Source: a virus. From it: DNA of 22,275 nucleotides. The notes beneath the pieces are model-generated. The model saw nothing but the letters and a program-made list of their open reading frames with translations. It did no database searches and was not told the origin of the DNA. The translations under genes were made by a program, and so were the position numbers. Positions 11,897 through 22,055 of this stretch are shown one piece after another (positions within the stretch are counted from its first letter, which is position 1; the number at the start of each line of letters is the position of its first letter). The DNA lies in the IMG/VR virus record IMGVR_UViG_3300022843_000085, positions 1-22,275 of that record, one strand, 5' to 3'.

Positions 11897-11931
11897 GTTT
11901 TAATCTCCCTAAAGAAATGGTAGAGGTCTAT

Positions 11932-12231
11932 ATGGAAAATTATAGACCTTTGCCTGATTGTTTGACAATTAAATCTTCTAATATTGAGGGTTTAGGATTG
12001 TTTGCAACTGTTGATATTGAAATGAATACTGTCTTTGGTGTATCGCATATCTTATATCAAGATAAACCTGTAAGAACACCATTGGGAGGATTTATCAATC
12101 ATTCTGAAGATTCTAACTGCAAAAAACAATTAATCGGTAATAAATATTATCTATTGAGTAAAAACTCTATAAAAGCTGGTGATGAATTGACTTTGACCTA
12201 CACACTTTACAATGTTACTTCTTGTCTGTAG
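11932..12231 (+). CDS. SET-domain protein (putative protein-lysine methyltransferase)
   Basis: The 99-residue protein contains the two halves of a SET domain: an N-terminal SNIEGLGLFATVDIEMNTVF (S-x-I-x-G-x-GLFA, the SAM-binding GxG equivalent) and a C-terminal FINHSEDSNC (56-58 NHS) followed by SIKAGDELTLTY with the catalytic Tyr. This is the pseudoknot region that binds S-adenosylmethionine and lysine. It is shorter than cellular SET proteins because the insert between the halves is minimal, as in other single-domain microbial ones. ATG 11932 is preferred over 11917, since AGAGG lies 5 nt before it. It is the last gene of its operon and overlaps the convergent IbrB-like gene by 17 nt. Confidence 0.82.
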   Translation: MENYRPLPDCLTIKSSNIEGLGLFATVDIEMNTVFGVSHILYQDKPVRTPLGGFINHSEDSNCKKQLIGNKYYLLSKNSIKAGDELTLTYTLYNVTSCL

Positions 12232-12733
12232 GCACCCATGATTTTCCAAAACCATCTACTTGTTTTGTACCCCTGATAGTCATTCCTGAATTATCTAGCA
12301 ATCTTTCCAATTCTTCTTCTTCCATAGATAGTCTTTCCATAATTTCTTTATCAGGAAGATTATCTTCTTTCATTTTTCTAACTATCTCTGACATTTTAAG
12401 AACAGCATGAGTACCTCTAGCTCTATTGTGTCTTATTGTGGACATCATTCGGTGGTCCTTATCAAAATCAACTATTACAACAGGGACTTTTCCATCTGTC
12501 ATTTGTGATACTTCAGGGTCTTTAGATAGTGTCCATCTATGGAATCCATCTACAATTGTATTGTCTGATAGTATTACTATTGGTTGAGTCCATCCATCCT
12601 CTATAATAGAAGTTTTAAGCAACTGCAATTCAGGTGGTGCTACAAAATTTGGATTATAATCGTTTGCATTTAGAGTGTTTCTATCAACCCATTGGACTTT
12701 TCCTACTGGTTGATTATCAATACCTTGTTTCAT
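12215..12733 (-). CDS. ibrB-like: IbrB-like ParB/sulfiredoxin-fold protein
   Basis: The 172-residue protein has a ParB N-terminal-type domain: LNANDYNPNFVAPPELQLL, EDGWTQPIVIL, and NTIVDGFHRWTLS (the GHRR-type motif as GFHRW, 63-67), then IRHNRARGTH (100-109), comparable to the second ParB nucleotide-binding motif, and a helical C-terminus with a possible HTH (PDKEIMERLSMEEEELERLL). In Escherichia coli an IbrA/IbrB pair (PAPS-reductase-like plus ParB-like) lies on a genetic island and activates prophage eib genes. Here the same order occurs: the start overlaps the IbrA-like gene by 17 nt with GAGG upstream. Biochemical role unknown. Confidence 0.8.
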   Translation of the reverse strand: MKQGIDNQPVGKVQWVDRNTLNANDYNPNFVAPPELQLLKTSIIEDGWTQPIVILSDNTIVDGFHRWTLSKDPEVSQMTDGKVPVVIVDFDKDHRMMSTIRHNRARGTHAVLKMSEIVRKMKEDNLPDKEIMERLSMEEEELERLLDNSGMTIRGTKQVDGFGKSWVPTDKK

Positions 12734-13880
12734 CTTTTAACCTCATTTGATCTATTAGTTTTTTCTTTTCAGGGTCAGCATGACTAGACATGGTTCTTAA
12801 TCTTCTGCCTTTCATATCACCTCTTAAAGCTATCATACAAAGACCTTTCCAGGATAATCCTGTAATATCATCAGGAGTTGTATCAGGCACTGGTCTTCTT
12901 GCAAGATTTATATGATTTCCAACTGCTGATCTAACATTGGAAAGAATAAATTTTTGTTGTTCAATATCGTATAAAGCGACATTATCATAGAACCAATCTT
13001 TCCATGTTTTATCTTTTGGAAGTTTTATTCCACCAAATCCATACAATTGTGTTCTTGAATATTTTTCTGATGTTGATGCACCAGAAACTCTACCTGTCAT
13101 TTTTGCCCAAAGTTCTGGCCAACCGACTTTATACTGCCAAAGTCCTCTCATTGGTTCTTCCCCAAAAGGAACACAGACTCTTTGTTCATTCTTACCTACA
13201 CCCATTTTATCAAGAACATCATAAACTCTATTATAATCCCAATTATAAATTTTTGGTGCTAACCAAACATCTGAAGAAGTCCAATCATATATTGGTGATA
13301 CTCCATATGAATATCCACTTCGTGCTCCTGTTATCCAGTTATCTTTTACCCGATGTGATACTGCTCTAAACCTAGTTAAACTTTCTTGTGCTCTTAAACC
13401 TCTAACATCAGCTATTCTTCCATGAGTATGATCATAAACTAAATGTGATACTTCAGGAATTGTATGTCCAGGTTTAAAACCTTTTATGTCAGTAATTGCA
13501 AAATCAGGAATATCTCTTACCCACTTGTCTTTACATTTAGGGTCAAAAGGATACCAAAATGGATCTCTACGACTTCCTCCATTTCTATGTTTAACTGGAA
13601 TACATAACCATTTTAATCTTATGTCAGGGTCGTTTTTAACCCTCATCATATACTCTACAGTTTCAGGCATTATAACTTCCTCATCCCAGAAATAAACATC
13701 TAAAGGAAGTTTGTTTTTTTCTCTAGCAATCTTTAATGCTAAATTTAAACAGACTGTGGAGTCTTTGCCTCCTGAAAAAGATACAACTACTTTATCAAAG
13801 CTATCAAATAAATATCTAAATCTATCTAAAGCTGATTGATAAACATTAGTTTCAATTTCTCTTTTTTTTAATACTACCAT
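12717..13880 (-). CDS. ibrA-like: IbrA-like PP-loop ATPase (PAPS reductase superfamily, DUF3440 type)
   Basis: The 387-residue protein starts MVVLKKREIETNVYQSALDR and has the PP-loop VVVSFSGGKDSTVCLN (SGGKDS at 36-41), which binds and activates ATP. Other segments: LDVYFWDEEVIMPETVEYM, GLRAQESLTRF, PIYDWTSSDVW (as in PAPS reductases), then a long C-terminal region with RVCVPFGEEPMRGLWQYK and PELWAKMTGRVSGA, which I associate with DUF3440/IbrA. I see no ECGxH catalytic cysteine, so it is probably not a PAPS reductase but an adenylating or ATP-pyrophosphatase enzyme. ATG 13880 is chosen; a TTG at 13901 is possible. It overlaps the symporter by 29 nt and the ParB-like gene by 17 nt. Confidence 0.85.
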   Translation of the reverse strand: MVVLKKREIETNVYQSALDRFRYLFDSFDKVVVSFSGGKDSTVCLNLALKIAREKNKLPLDVYFWDEEVIMPETVEYMMRVKNDPDIRLKWLCIPVKHRNGGSRRDPFWYPFDPKCKDKWVRDIPDFAITDIKGFKPGHTIPEVSHLVYDHTHGRIADVRGLRAQESLTRFRAVSHRVKDNWITGARSGYSYGVSPIYDWTSSDVWLAPKIYNWDYNRVYDVLDKMGVGKNEQRVCVPFGEEPMRGLWQYKVGWPELWAKMTGRVSGASTSEKYSRTQLYGFGGIKLPKDKTWKDWFYDNVALYDIEQQKFILSNVRSAVGNHINLARRPVPDTTPDDITGLSWKGLCMIALRGDMKGRRLRTMSSHADPEKKKLIDQMRLKDETRY

Positions 13881-15261
13881 AATTTGTAAAGTAATAGACA
13901 ATTATTCCACTTGCTGACACAGTAAATATAGATGACCAAACTGCTAAATCAGTAAGACCATTAAATTTTGCATAAGCAAACATTGGAACACCAATAACTA
14001 AAGATGTCGTAATACCATAGAACATTCCTGGTTCTGATACTTTTTTATTAATTATTGTATAAATTGTCGGTATTAATGTTGATGCTCTTAATGTTCCATA
14101 GAAAATAAATAAATATAATATTTTCATATCAGGAATATTAGCAAGAGCAATTCCACCTATTGAAAGTAGAACCATTCCAGTTCTTGCATTAGTTAGTTTA
14201 TTTTTTGAATTAGGAATAATATCTGTACTTGCAATTGAAGATATAGAACACAATCCTGAATCTAATGTAGACACAAGACCAGATAATAACATCCAAACAA
14301 AAGGTATTAGAATAAATGTCGGCAATAATTCACTAACAGTTATTACATTGATTAGTTGTGCATTACCTCCTGCATCTATACCTAGACCGGCACCCATAAA
14401 TCCTATTACTGATGTAAATATTGGAACAACACCAAAGACTAATGCTGAAAGTAAAAATGATTTCTTGACTTCGTTTTGTTTTGTTGTAAATGCTCTTTGC
14501 CAAAAGGATTGATCACCAAATGGTCCTGCAAGTAATCCAATTGATACTACAATACCAAATGACCATGCAACTGATGAATCAAAGACATTAGAATACTCTC
14601 CAGAGATACCACCAATGCCTTTGACCATTACATCATAACCACCTCCTTGAATATAAACTAGAGGTACTACTACTAACACCACTATAAGTATTATTATCAT
14701 CTGCCAAACATCTGTCATAATTGAAGCCCTTATCCCTGATACAAATGAATAAGATAAAGCTATTGCTGTAAGTATAACTGTTACGACTGTATAATCTATT
14801 CCTGTTAAGTAAGTAACGACTGCACCACCAGCAAGTAGCTGAACAGCAAACTGACAAATAGAAAGAGCAGATAGACTAATGATATATAAAATCTGCACTC
14901 GTCTTGAATATCTAACATTCATATATTGAGCAAGTGTAAATCCATTTTTAAATTTGTTTCTTAAATATTGTGCAAAGTATGCAAAGATACAAAGACATAT
15001 TATGTTTGGTACTGTAAACCAAAAGACACCAGGCAATCCCTGTTGATATGCTTTTTGTGATGCTATGAATAGAGCTGGAGCCCATATCCAAGTAGCGGCA
15101 GTTGAAAATCCTGATTTCATAAAACCAACTTTTCTATCTGATACTAAAAAATTTGTATTTGTTTTAGATTCTTTTAAGTAGAAGTAAGATATTCCGAACA
15201 TGAATAATCCATAACTAATTAAAAGAATATAACCTGTTGAGGTACTTAATAGTGTTTCCAT
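13852..15261 (-). CDS. Sodium:solute symporter, SSS family
   Basis: The 469-residue integral membrane protein has about 12-13 hydrophobic segments from TSTGYILLISYGLFMFG to GIIVYYFTN. SSS hallmarks include STAATWIWAPALFIASQ (TM1-2, 53-69), SGIRASIMTDVWQ (175-187), GPFGDQSFWQRAFTTK (246-261) and SGLVSTLDSGLCSISS followed by ASTDI (327-348). S331-T332 align with the Ser-Thr of the Na2 sodium site known in PutP. GDQ-x-WQRA resembles urea/proton (DUR3) and related permeases, but the substrate cannot be read. Length is normal and the frame intact. It sits 4 nt after a ParB-like gene, with AAGGA upstream, and overlaps the IbrA-like gene, so it is in the phage operon. Confidence 0.9.
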   Translation of the reverse strand: METLLSTSTGYILLISYGLFMFGISYFYLKESKTNTNFLVSDRKVGFMKSGFSTAATWIWAPALFIASQKAYQQGLPGVFWFTVPNIICLCIFAYFAQYLRNKFKNGFTLAQYMNVRYSRRVQILYIISLSALSICQFAVQLLAGGAVVTYLTGIDYTVVTVILTAIALSYSFVSGIRASIMTDVWQMIIILIVVLVVVPLVYIQGGGYDVMVKGIGGISGEYSNVFDSSVAWSFGIVVSIGLLAGPFGDQSFWQRAFTTKQNEVKKSFLLSALVFGVVPIFTSVIGFMGAGLGIDAGGNAQLINVITVSELLPTFILIPFVWMLLSGLVSTLDSGLCSISSIASTDIIPNSKNKLTNARTGMVLLSIGGIALANIPDMKILYLFIFYGTLRASTLIPTIYTIINKKVSEPGMFYGITTSLVIGVPMFAYAKFNGLTDLAVWSSIFTVSASGIIVYYFTNYGSIKKKRN

Positions 15262-15265
15262 TTTT

Positions 15266-15904
15266 TTATTTCCTTACCAAAAACATCACAGACTCTGCAA
15301 ATGTTTTTAAATTGTTTGTTTCTTTTATGTTATTTAATACTTTGTATAATTCTTTCCTGTCTTCTTCTGTAAGTAGGATAGAAAATTCTACAAATCTTTG
15401 GTTCTCATCTGATGGATTAGAAAATGTGTTTGAAGTTCTAACAGTTTCATCACCACCTTCTTCTTGATTATTTTTTATATTTCTATCGGTTTCCATTTCT
15501 TGAAATCTTAATTTAATATAATCAAATTCACCCTCATCAAATCCAAGCAGTTGTTCGTCTATTTGATTTTTATCTATTAATTCTGAAATTTCTTTAACAG
15601 CTAAATCCCAATCCCAAGCAGTTTCTTCATGACTTCTGTTATCCATGAATCTATATGCTTTTACCTTTTCTTCAGAAAGTCCAACTGCTTTAAAAACTGG
15701 TACTTCTCTAAATCCAAGTTTTTCAGCCGCCTTATGTCTTGTGTGTCCAGCAATTATAATATTATTTTCATCAACTACGATTGGTTGTTGCCACCCAAAT
15801 TCTTTTAGACTTAAAGCAACTTTATCAACTGCTTTATCTGAAATTTTTCGTGGATTATTTTCGTATGGTTTTATTTCTGTTATACTTATTGTTTCAATAT
15901 TCAT
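15266..15904 (-). CDS. ParB-like nuclease-domain protein
   Basis: The 212-residue protein has a phage-type ParB N-terminal domain: ITEIKPYENNPRKISDKAVD, EFGWQQPIVVDENNIIIAGH and TRHKAAEKLGFREVPVF (AGHTRHKAA, 52-60), then YRFMDNRSHEETAWDWD. These domains bind CTP or nucleic acids, and are often fused to DNA methylases in phages; no methylase is fused here. The C-terminal half is an acidic linker plus FVEFSILLTEEDRKELYKVL. ATG 15904 is chosen over a TTG at 15916. It is followed after 4 nt by the symporter. A different ParB type from the IbrB-like protein; role unknown, possibly DNA modification, partition or regulation. Confidence 0.82.
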   Translation of the reverse strand: MNIETISITEIKPYENNPRKISDKAVDKVALSLKEFGWQQPIVVDENNIIIAGHTRHKAAEKLGFREVPVFKAVGLSEEKVKAYRFMDNRSHEETAWDWDLAVKEISELIDKNQIDEQLLGFDEGEFDYIKLRFQEMETDRNIKNNQEEGGDETVRTSNTFSNPSDENQRFVEFSILLTEEDRKELYKVLNNIKETNNLKTFAESVMFLVRK

Positions 15905-15948
15905 AAATAGGGACAATTTCCACTCTCGCTTTATTGCCCCAAACCTTT

Positions 15949-20061: not shown

Positions 20062-20430
20062 ATGGGATGGGATAATTATACTCAACACGAAAAATCATCT
20101 TCAGATACACCAACCTCTTGCACAAAAGAACAGGTTGGAATGAAAGAGTATGAGGTTGAAGTAGATGTTGTATTTACAGTTAAGTACAAGGTTCTAGCAA
20201 AAGATAAGTCAGATTTGATAGATAAGAAAATGTATTTAGCTGGTTGCGAGTTAGAAATAGAAAAAGATGATCAATACTCTGATTGTTATGACATAAGATG
20301 TAAAAATTGGGGTACTGAAAAAGAGAAAGAATCTGAAACTGGAAGAGAGGTTGTAGCAAATATTATAGAACCTGAAGAACCTAAAGCAGATGATAATTAT
20401 GATTATGAATTAGAACACAAAACTTTTTAA
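20062..20430 (+). CDS. 122-residue acidic hypothetical protein
   Basis: Low-complexity polar N-terminus (MGWDNYTQHEKSSSDTPTS), then a small alpha/beta segment EVEVDVVFTVKYKVLAKDKS, and a strongly acidic C-terminus (NIIEPEEPKADDNYDYELE). A second ATG at residue 27, preceded by AGGTTGGA, could start a shorter product. Acidic, early-expressed phage proteins sometimes mimic DNA, but there is no specific evidence here. It is the last gene before the RNA region. Confidence 0.6.
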   Translation: MGWDNYTQHEKSSSDTPTSCTKEQVGMKEYEVEVDVVFTVKYKVLAKDKSDLIDKKMYLAGCELEIEKDDQYSDCYDIRCKNWGTEKEKESETGREVVANIIEPEEPKADDNYDYELEHKTF

Positions 20431-20431
20431 C

Positions 20432-20461
20432 TTGACAAAAGATACATTATGGAATTATACA
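20432..20461 (+). promoter_or_regulatory. Promoter for the structured RNA at 20468-20591
   Basis: TTGACA (20432-20437), 18-bp spacer, TATACA (20456-20461), placed immediately after the stop of the acidic gene. It lacks the ATAACAAAAA leader of the other promoters and has no good ribosome site behind it, which suits a noncoding transcript. Confidence 0.65.
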
Positions 20462-20467
20462 GTTTAT

Positions 20468-20591
20468 TGAGAGAGTCAAATTCCTCTCACTTATTTAAGG
20501 GTGGGAGTTGGGTATCAGTAATGACCCAGAAGTCTATAGATACAAAGCACAATCGTGCCTGTCTCCATACTTTGTTAGCTCCTATCCTTTT
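20468..20591 (+). ncRNA. Putative structured noncoding RNA of about 125 nt
   Basis: A first hairpin TGAGAG/CTCTCA (20468-20473 with 20484-20489) is followed by a closed domain: GGGTGGGAGTT (20499-20509) pairs over all 11 positions with AGCTCCTATCC (20577-20587), including three G-U pairs, so it folds only as plus-strand RNA. Inside are TGGGT/ACCCA (20509-20528; T20509/A20528 competes with the closing pair) and ACAAAG/CTTTGT (20542-20575) enclosing GCAC/GTGC. The 3' arm is followed by TTTT, as in a terminator. The patch is distinctly more GC-rich than its surroundings. It matches no RNA class I can name; no T-loop is present, so it is not a tRNA. Confidence 0.6.
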
Positions 20592-20616
20592 AATAAATAA
20601 AAATTATTATTTTATA

Positions 20617-20645
20617 TTGACAATTATTAATATATTGAGTAACTT
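20617..20645 (+). promoter_or_regulatory. Promoter for genes from 20670
   Basis: TTGACA (20617-20622), 17-bp spacer, TAACTT (20640-20645, weak -10). Fourteen bases, ATTGACAATTATTA, are identical with the promoter at 10791-10804. The leader GAAACAAAAATGGAG leads to ATG 20670. Confidence 0.6.
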
Positions 20646-20669
20646 AACAGAAACAAAAATGGAGAGAAT

Positions 20670-20852
20670 ATGATTACAATGCGTATAAATGGAAAGTTAG
20701 TAAAAGCAAATAGTGTTTATCACTGCTTTGTAAAAGCTAAAGGTAGTTTTTTTCATACAGATAAAACTACAACTATAAATCAAATAGAAAATCAAATGAA
20801 AGGAAATGACAATGTCAAAACCATACAAGATGTTACAGATACCTGTAACTAA
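20670..20852 (+). CDS. 60-residue hypothetical protein
   Basis: MITMRINGKLVKANSVYHCF... with a short strand pair (MRINGKLVKAN; HCFVKAKGSFFHTD) and a polar tail. ATG 20670 has GGAGAG upstream and is the first gene after promoter 20617-20645. No recognised family. Its last 41 nt overlap the ribbon-helix-helix gene, so the tail sequence may be constrained by the other frame. Confidence 0.6.
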   Translation: MITMRINGKLVKANSVYHCFVKAKGSFFHTDKTTTINQIENQMKGNDNVKTIQDVTDTCN

Positions 20853-20949
20853 AGATGAGTACGATAGAATAATGGAACTTGCTAGTAAGGAAAGTAGAAG
20901 TATTCCAGCACAAATAAAAATGATGTTAAAGAATTTATTTAAAAAATGA
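20812..20949 (+). CDS. 45-residue ribbon-helix-helix-type protein
   Basis: A short frame reads MSKPYKMLQIPVTKDEYDRI then MELASKESRSIPAQIKMMLK and NLFKK. One strand (KMLQIPVT), a helix (KDEYDRIMELASKES) and a second helix beginning at the conserved SIPAQI turn match the Arc/MetJ/CopG ribbon-helix-helix fold, which binds DNA as a dimer through the strand. AAAGGAAA precedes the ATG by about 5 nt, and the stop overlaps the next ATG (ATGA). A small repressor of nearby promoters is the likely role. Confidence 0.65.
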   Translation: MSKPYKMLQIPVTKDEYDRIMELASKESRSIPAQIKMMLKNLFKK

Positions 20950-21654: not shown

Positions 21655-21847
21655 ACTTATAGAAAAAATAGAGTGGTTAATTAAAGAAAATAGAAAAGCA
21701 GAACAAAATTCTATACCGAGTGGTAAGGTAGAAGAATATATCCAGGAATATAAAACAGAGTTTCCTGGAATTTATAACAAAAACAAAAATGGAGAACAAC
21801 ATGACAAAAAAAATAATATCGTTGATTTTATTCTTGATATTGACTAA
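21641..21847 (+). CDS. 68-residue hypothetical protein, doubtful
   Basis: MRTIKLIEKIEWLIKENRKA... is a charged helical product (VEEYIQEYKTEFPGIYNK). It has only a weak ribosome site (AGATAAAAATG) and overlaps the XRE gene by 14 nt and the lipoprotein gene by 47 nt. Placement in a tight same-strand series favours a real gene, but the long overlap at its end weakens this. Confidence 0.4.
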   Translation: MRTIKLIEKIEWLIKENRKAEQNSIPSGKVEEYIQEYKTEFPGIYNKNKNGEQHDKKNNIVDFILDID

Positions 21848-22055
21848 TTGCGCATACAAGCCAAAAATTAATCCTGAAGCAAGTAGAGATCCTTATACAG
21901 GTAAAAATATAGCTGGTAAATATTACTATCATCTAGCAACTTGTGAGGATATGTGGGAAAAAAATGCACCTTTTTCTTTAATAAAAAGACAGGGTTCTTT
22001 TACTAGAAAATGTATGCAAGATTTTGGATATAAACTTTTACATTATAAGGGATAA
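21801..22055 (+). CDS. Small lipoprotein
   Basis: The 84-residue product begins MTKKIISLILFLILTNC, a signal peptide with a basic start, hydrophobic core and a lipobox-like LTNC (Asn at -1 is unusual). The remaining 67 residues are polar, with CAYKPKINPEASRDP, LATCEDMWEKNAPF and TRKCMQDFGYK; the two extra cysteines may form a disulfide in the periplasm. ATG 21801 has GGAG 8 nt upstream. It could be an outer-membrane spanin or a superinfection-exclusion lipoprotein; neither is proven. Confidence 0.65.
   Translation: MTKKIISLILFLILTNCAYKPKINPEASRDPYTGKNIAGKYYYHLATCEDMWEKNAPFSLIKRQGSFTRKCMQDFGYKLLHYKG

Follow-up and report, generated by a model that had tools for sequence, protein, structure and literature searches.

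An RNA encoded on the + strand of a virus record (IMGVR_UViG_3300022843_000085; the whole stretch of 22,275 bases is called the window here) belongs to a conserved family whose shape is kept by matching mutations while its letters change. Fourteen distinct sequences from 19 records of uncultured bacterial viruses, the window included, have one fold in common: a 5′ hairpin, followed by a closed three-way junction that contains a GNRA hairpin, an internal loop with the letters CUCC and a GUUA linker. The consensus comprises 28-29 pairs over about 120 nt. As far as Rfam, named-phage and literature searches reach, the family is new, though its kind, a phage-encoded structured RNA, is already known. 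It adds a covariation-supported RNA family and a usable covariance model for a phage group that is, as far as we found, otherwise without described RNA genes. The parts of the element and its surroundings in the window are as follows.

20432-20461, + strand: promoter pR, with the −35 element TTGACA at 20432-20437, a spacer of 18 and the −10-like TATACA at 20456-20461
20467-20591, + strand: structured RNA, predicted transcript with a predicted 5′ end at about 20467-20468 and a putative 3′ end
20468-20489, + strand: 5′ hairpin, UGAGAG (20468-20473) with CUCUCA (20484-20489), which folds in each copy
20499-20587, + strand: closing helix P1, 20499-20509 with 20577-20587, enclosing the three-way junction
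20509-20528, + strand: P2, consisting of UGGG, a 2-nt bulge UA, UCA-GUAA-UGA (GNRA tetraloop) and CCCA
within 20529-20573, + strand: P3, GAAGU (20529-20533) with ACUUU (20569-20573)
20538-20542 with 20560-20564, + strand: P4, apical arm
20547-20550 with 20555-20558, + strand: P5, apical arm
20563-20566, + strand: invariant CUCC at the internal loop
20574-20577, + strand: junction linker GUUA, invariant; A20577 could alternatively belong to P1 as its closing base
20617-20645, + strand: second promoter-like motif pD, TTGACA (20617-20622), 17 nt, TAACTT (20640-20645)
20449-20673, + strand: reading frame through the RNA, with a 4-nt overlap at the next start codon; protein not conserved
20670-20852, + strand: next gene, 60 aa, no family found
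20812-20949, + strand: small Arc-like (ribbon-helix-helix) regulator, by a weak match to phrog_3431 (E 0.0031) on 20806-20949

The structured RNA seen in the window is real. The stretch from 20467 to 20595 folds at −37.4 kcal/mol, while shuffles average −26.2 (sd 3.85; z −2.90) and not one of 200 folds as well. Most of what an earlier note had read from the letters is found again: by eye, pR with its 18-nt spacer lies directly after the stop at 20430, the 11-bp closing stem has exactly three G-U pairs, and the two internal hairpins and the 5′ hairpin are where they had been placed. The core is GC-rich, as described (0.46 for 20499-20587 versus 0.31 for the window), with only 0.14% of 89-nt windows matching this value. 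The fold also proved strand-specific, since summed over the family about 48 of 406 alignment cells are G-U on the + strand and would be C-A on the other. A terminal U-run, which the note had included as well, was not borne out: of the 8 nt that follow the stem, with its end as set here, 3 are T (P 0.71 versus the flank).

The conservation of the fold was evaluated on an alignment (A9) of the 14 distinct sequences that was made with MAFFT from sequence only and was not fitted to the fold. RNAalifold run on A9 recovers the same structure unaided, with 29 pairs, 18 of which show kept double changes. In A9, 94.1% of the 406 cells are paired, and there are 78 double-change cells versus 25.2 (sd 3.6) in shuffles, with a covariation score of 0.619 versus 0.228. 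When one strand is slid by 1-3 columns, the paired cells amount to 39-49% and the double-change cells to 5-13. The model-fitted alignment A8, which leans towards structure, gives 95.7% paired cells, with double changes in 17 of 28 pairs and 84 cells. The earlier note had proposed a covariation check, and with homologues that covary this strongly, a lack of covariation is ruled out.

The support extends over the whole element. In the 5′ hairpin, four of six pairs covary (A8), and seven pairs of P1 have changed on both sides while 98.7-99.3% of the cells stay paired. A U-A pair of the P2 stem changes to G-C and A-U, and its tetraloop is GUAA in 13 of the 14 sequences and GCAA in one. The apical arm of P4 and P5 forms in 12/14 when folded alone; in G014 and G016, for which the isolated-arm cut was wrong, it is seen in a longer fold. 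Misfits are found in the 5′ hairpin of the window group (shifted register, A9), in P3 of G014 and G016 (shifted, A9) and at the outer pair of the 5′ hairpin, which is unpaired in 7/14 on A8. The main unpaired invariants are the frame of the tetraloop, CUCC and GUUA. The probability that we are looking at a chance fold or an alignment artefact is negligible, because the fold beats shuffles, the model finds diverged copies, and RNAalifold and the covariation in the unfitted alignment agree.

Copies of the RNA were collected along several routes. One record, IMGVR_UViG_3300023237_000100, is 99.7% identical to the window across its last 5.2 kb. A DNA search of 18 related records (16 related by terminase, 2 by HTH) gave a copy with 77% identity in G011 as well as 14-letter matches in G014 and G016, where the fold is the same but built from other stem letters; altogether, four of the 18 records carry the RNA (G001, G011, G014 and G016). 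A candidate in G006 turned out to be merely a 19-base chance match. Seven of the 14 loci retrieved with the first RNA pattern are real copies. The covariance model R1, built from four close copies, matches eight sequences it had not seen (L242 with 83 bits, L257 with 76, L234 with 75, L232 with 74, L254 with 66, L239 with 65, L238 with 60 and L261 with 59), and it reaches the most remote pair, G014 and G016, with 37.0 and 30.7 bits. The last RNA pattern retrieved 35 loci, 30 of them previously unseen; the RNA is present in 10 of these 30, and three of the ten copies are new sequences (L254, L257 and L261). In a further set of 27 records there are three matches, all of them in records that the RNA pattern itself had retrieved. 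There is one RNA per record, and most contigs without it are short and may stop before the region.

A lipoprotein-like protein at 21801-22055 (+ strand; TNCAYKP...NPE.SRD), which has no Pfam family and no relative in named phages, occurs clade-wide and serves as a clade marker. A scan with this conserved lipoprotein yielded 20 loci, and the RNA is present in 14 of them, that is in every locus with at least 41% lipoprotein identity and enough upstream sequence. As for the six loci without it, L229 and L231 end just upstream of the lipoprotein gene, and L243-L246 have a lipoprotein identity of only 26-28%. As all clade members examined that are complete enough have the RNA, and regulator genes lie next to it, a phenotype is plausible.

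Outside this clade the searches came back empty. Model R2 found no copy among the 120 genome-contig stretches listed from a pattern scan that gave at least 120, and 42 viral loci with chance pattern matches received no score. Against named phages, the window copy as DNA query gave short chance matches only (best E 0.5), the L239 copy gave a single match in a DUF3383 gene (E 0.03), and the L234 and L237 copies gave none. The stretches taken from three pelagiphages that have a related HTH gene are devoid of a copy, as are seven further genomes. None was found in 385 alphaproteobacterial genomes either, a weak result, since the filters were strict and the set included no positive control.

With respect to the promoter, each of the 14 copies has a −35 element of the form TTGNNW (exactly TTGACA in nine) that begins 35-37 nt upstream of the hairpin's first base; for L257 (TTGACT, 36 nt) and L238 (TTGTAA, 37 nt) the distance was taken by eye from the sequence. 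The −10 element of pR matches the consensus at four of six positions in the window and is poor in L232 and L257, and the window's pR is absent from the list of a consensus promoter scan. Sigma-70 scores are 10-11 of 12 in ten copies and 7-8 in L242, L261, L239 and L238, and in L257 and L232 the best site of the scan is a different, more distant TTGACA. The sigma-70 score alone is thus not decisive, and only the fixed distance of the −35 element is convincing. Given this distance, the transcript should begin at the 5′ hairpin. An intrinsic terminator was looked for and is not supported, as the T content after P1 does not exceed that of the shuffled flank at P<0.05 in any of the 14 copies (best P outside the window, 0.08). 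Transcription from pR may therefore continue into the downstream gene, with the RNA possibly serving as its leader.

Every one of the copies is followed by a gene in the same orientation, whose start codon lies 60-86 nt beyond P1 (14/14). In 11 of the 14 copies, 53-59 nt before this ATG, there is a second promoter-like motif, pD (TT[GT]AC[AT]-N17-TANNN[AT]), with shuffled-flank probabilities of 0.003-0.031 each for a motif that was defined after seeing the data; plain promoter scores at pD are mostly unremarkable. The next gene is a 60-aa gene, an Arc-like regulator or a gene beginning MNIFHLD, depending on the copy. The Arc-like regulator follows directly in eight copies (L232, L234, L238, L239, L242, L254, L257 and L261) and after one small gene in four (the window, L236, L230 and L228, the last placed by its near identity to L230), which makes it the first or second gene downstream in 12 copies. 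The next gene of G014 is the unrelated MNIFHLD gene, with the Arc-like gene about 2 kb further on, and G016 has the same MNIFHLD gene. HTH and lipoprotein genes come next.

A reading frame of unusual character runs through the RNA. In 12 of the 14 copies one + frame passes across it without a stop, three of these having been found after the pattern was noticed. Its ATG or GTG lies 17-19 nt ahead of the hairpin in all of the 12 but L242, where the distance is 53 nt; the start codon is thus placed upstream of where the transcript is predicted to begin. At the other end, 11 of the 12 copies show an overlap of 4-20 nt with the beginning of the next gene, while the frame of L254 stops 15 nt short. 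The chance of an open flank is 0.03-0.15 in each of seven copies, which gives a rough joint chance of about 2 in 100,000 if the groups of the window, L242, L234 and L232 are treated as independent. The earlier note had named a frame conserved across 20449-20673 in relatives as an argument against the RNA. The frame is indeed widely open, yet it shows no amino-acid constraint and occurs in two registers, so that the RNA is not refuted. Over 10 pairs, 165 of 201 changed codons are nonsynonymous, and this share of 0.82 is like those of the other two frames (0.80 and 0.82); in the neighbouring regulator gene of L239 and L261, the corresponding counts are 6/16 versus 14/16 and 15/15. Relative to the RNA, nine distinct copies have the frame in register 0 and three in register 2, and G014 and G016 keep the fold without an open frame. 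Openness of the frame seems to be kept, the peptide not.

A small protein gene, to which the RNA fold would be secondary, could draw on the open frame, its in-frame start codon before the hairpin and its overlap with the next start. We nevertheless regard it as very improbable and reject the protein-coding reading, since the substitutions show no purifying selection on amino acids, unlike those of the neighbouring regulator gene, and since the register varies, two copies have the fold without the frame, and 18 pairs covary. Without protein constraint and with a changing register, the encoded peptide is not the product. A rather unlikely alternative would be a phage RNA of a new class in which translation gates expression, with the frame as a device and not a gene for a product. 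Transcripts from upstream would include the start codon, which lies 17-53 nt ahead of the RNA, and ribosomes would translate straight through the RNA, melting the fold and coupling translation to the next gene, whereas transcripts from pR, which would lack this start codon, would give a folded RNA that stays untranslated and acts on some component of host or phage. A frame that is open without protein constraint makes this a testable case of an RNA gene hidden in a translated operon.

As to function, the fold, the family, its occurrence once per record and the layout of the promoters are established. The explanation we favour, tentatively and at slightly less than an even chance, is that the element is an RNA gene of the phage clade that gives rise to a trans-acting folded RNA during infection. 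We infer a discrete transcript, trans action and a protein partner: host sigma-70-type RNA polymerase would start at pR, the transcript would begin at the 5′ hairpin and fold into this hairpin and the compact three-way junction, its main invariant unpaired letters being those of the GNRA tetraloop, of the internal loop with its CC and of the GUUA linker, and the RNA would most likely bind a host or phage protein as a regulator, decoy or scaffold. It is the pD motif, by which the downstream operon would have a promoter of its own, that leads us to treat the RNA as separate. The open frame in 12 of 14 copies is unexplained by a pure RNA gene and counts against this reading.

The RNA might instead be a cis-acting leader of the downstream operon, whose nascent form modifies RNA polymerase or controls read-through or translation. 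This is doubtful, but the missing terminator and the constancy with which regulators lie nearby keep it alive, and it fits with the RNA beginning at the predicted start site and with the uniformly short distance to the next start codon. We favour trans action over it on account of pD, which in most copies intervenes between RNA and gene, of the complete exchange of the downstream genes in G014 and G016, and of the single copy, the window having a long leftward gene block as well. The put RNA of phage HK022, a cis-acting antiterminator, acts on RNA polymerase via the zinc-binding domain of the β′ subunit. It resembles the present RNA in being a structured phage RNA downstream of a promoter, in its case one of early genes; going by the regulators downstream, pR may be early too. 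However, put RNAs are differently built, which again speaks against a leader: as described in PMC9378689, they have about 70 nt, two stem-loops and two copies (putL and putR), as opposed to the 5′ hairpin plus closed three-way junction of about 120 nt, in one copy, that we find here with another promoter-like motif before the gene.

A base-pairing small RNA, whose invariant CUCC would pair with ribosome binding sites of mRNAs, is unlikely in our estimation. CUCC is present in 14/14 and is complementary to the GGAG of phage ribosome binding sites, and pairing with the start of the own next gene is slightly stronger than in permutations (−11.7 versus −10.7 kcal/mol; P 0.007, with relatedness ignored). 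But a specific pairing with this start region was not upheld against other starts, as the next gene is not special among those of the same genome or locus (13 sequences, z −1.59 to +0.86). Moreover, most copies have the CU of CUCC partly engaged in P4 pairing, and no further single-stranded seed is conserved. Nor is an intrinsic terminator with a U tract, as expected at the 3′ end of such an RNA, supported in any of the 14 copies. CUCC may act as an antisense element, and yet the invariant pattern would seem to fit a tertiary fold recognised by another molecule better than an antisense seed. Even less probable is a riboswitch, in which the junction would bind a small molecule and control the next gene. 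The compact junction, invariant loops and position near a start codon speak for it, but a promoter motif follows in 11 of 14 copies, the downstream genes are regulators or unknowns with no recognisable metabolic genes among them, no alternative terminator or anti-SD helix was identified, and no Rfam riboswitch matches at E up to 10.

That the element may be a new phage RNA, as the earlier note had suggested, gains strength from the covariation in homologues, the promoter element at a fixed distance and the lack of an Rfam match. Across the whole window, none of 4227 families of Rfam 15 reaches its gathering cut-off, and relaxing the threshold to E up to 10 yields for 20380-20700 a single match, to a viral pseudoknot on the opposite strand, which is due to chance. 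The RNA copies of L242, L232, L239 and L237 match no family either. A literature search found no description of this RNA. Among known systems, the manA and wcaG motifs (RF01745 and RF01761) are likewise phage-linked structured RNAs found by comparative genomics, in marine metagenomes and cyanophages, with a ligand likewise unproven in the account of PMC2864571, but they are tied to metabolic genes, e.g., exopolysaccharide genes. Neither motif matches the window in the Rfam searches. GOLLD and ROOL are structured bacterial RNAs with links to phages. They differ in being large and oligomeric (PMC12286853), and the RNA here has no Rfam match. The small RNAs of E. coli prophages (Pas and others) are similar as small RNA genes on phage DNA, but are described as base-pairing (PMC13192938), whereas no specific target complementarity was found here.

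The phage genome of the window has some further features. It encodes a sodium:solute symporter at 13852-15261 (− strand; Pfam SSF, E 1.8e-21), of which only one of 50,697 phage records, from a human faecal sample, has a relative (41% identity). A PAPS-reductase/DUF3440 protein is found near two ParB-like proteins (12717-13901, 12215-12733 and 15266-15916, all on the − strand); one of the ParB matches scores below the curated cut-off, and G014 has a similar-looking counterpart to a protein of this group. In L242, a protein that by eye is SET-domain-like (L242:4418-4714) lies just upstream of the RNA, and a protein resembling it is encoded in the window at 11917-12231.
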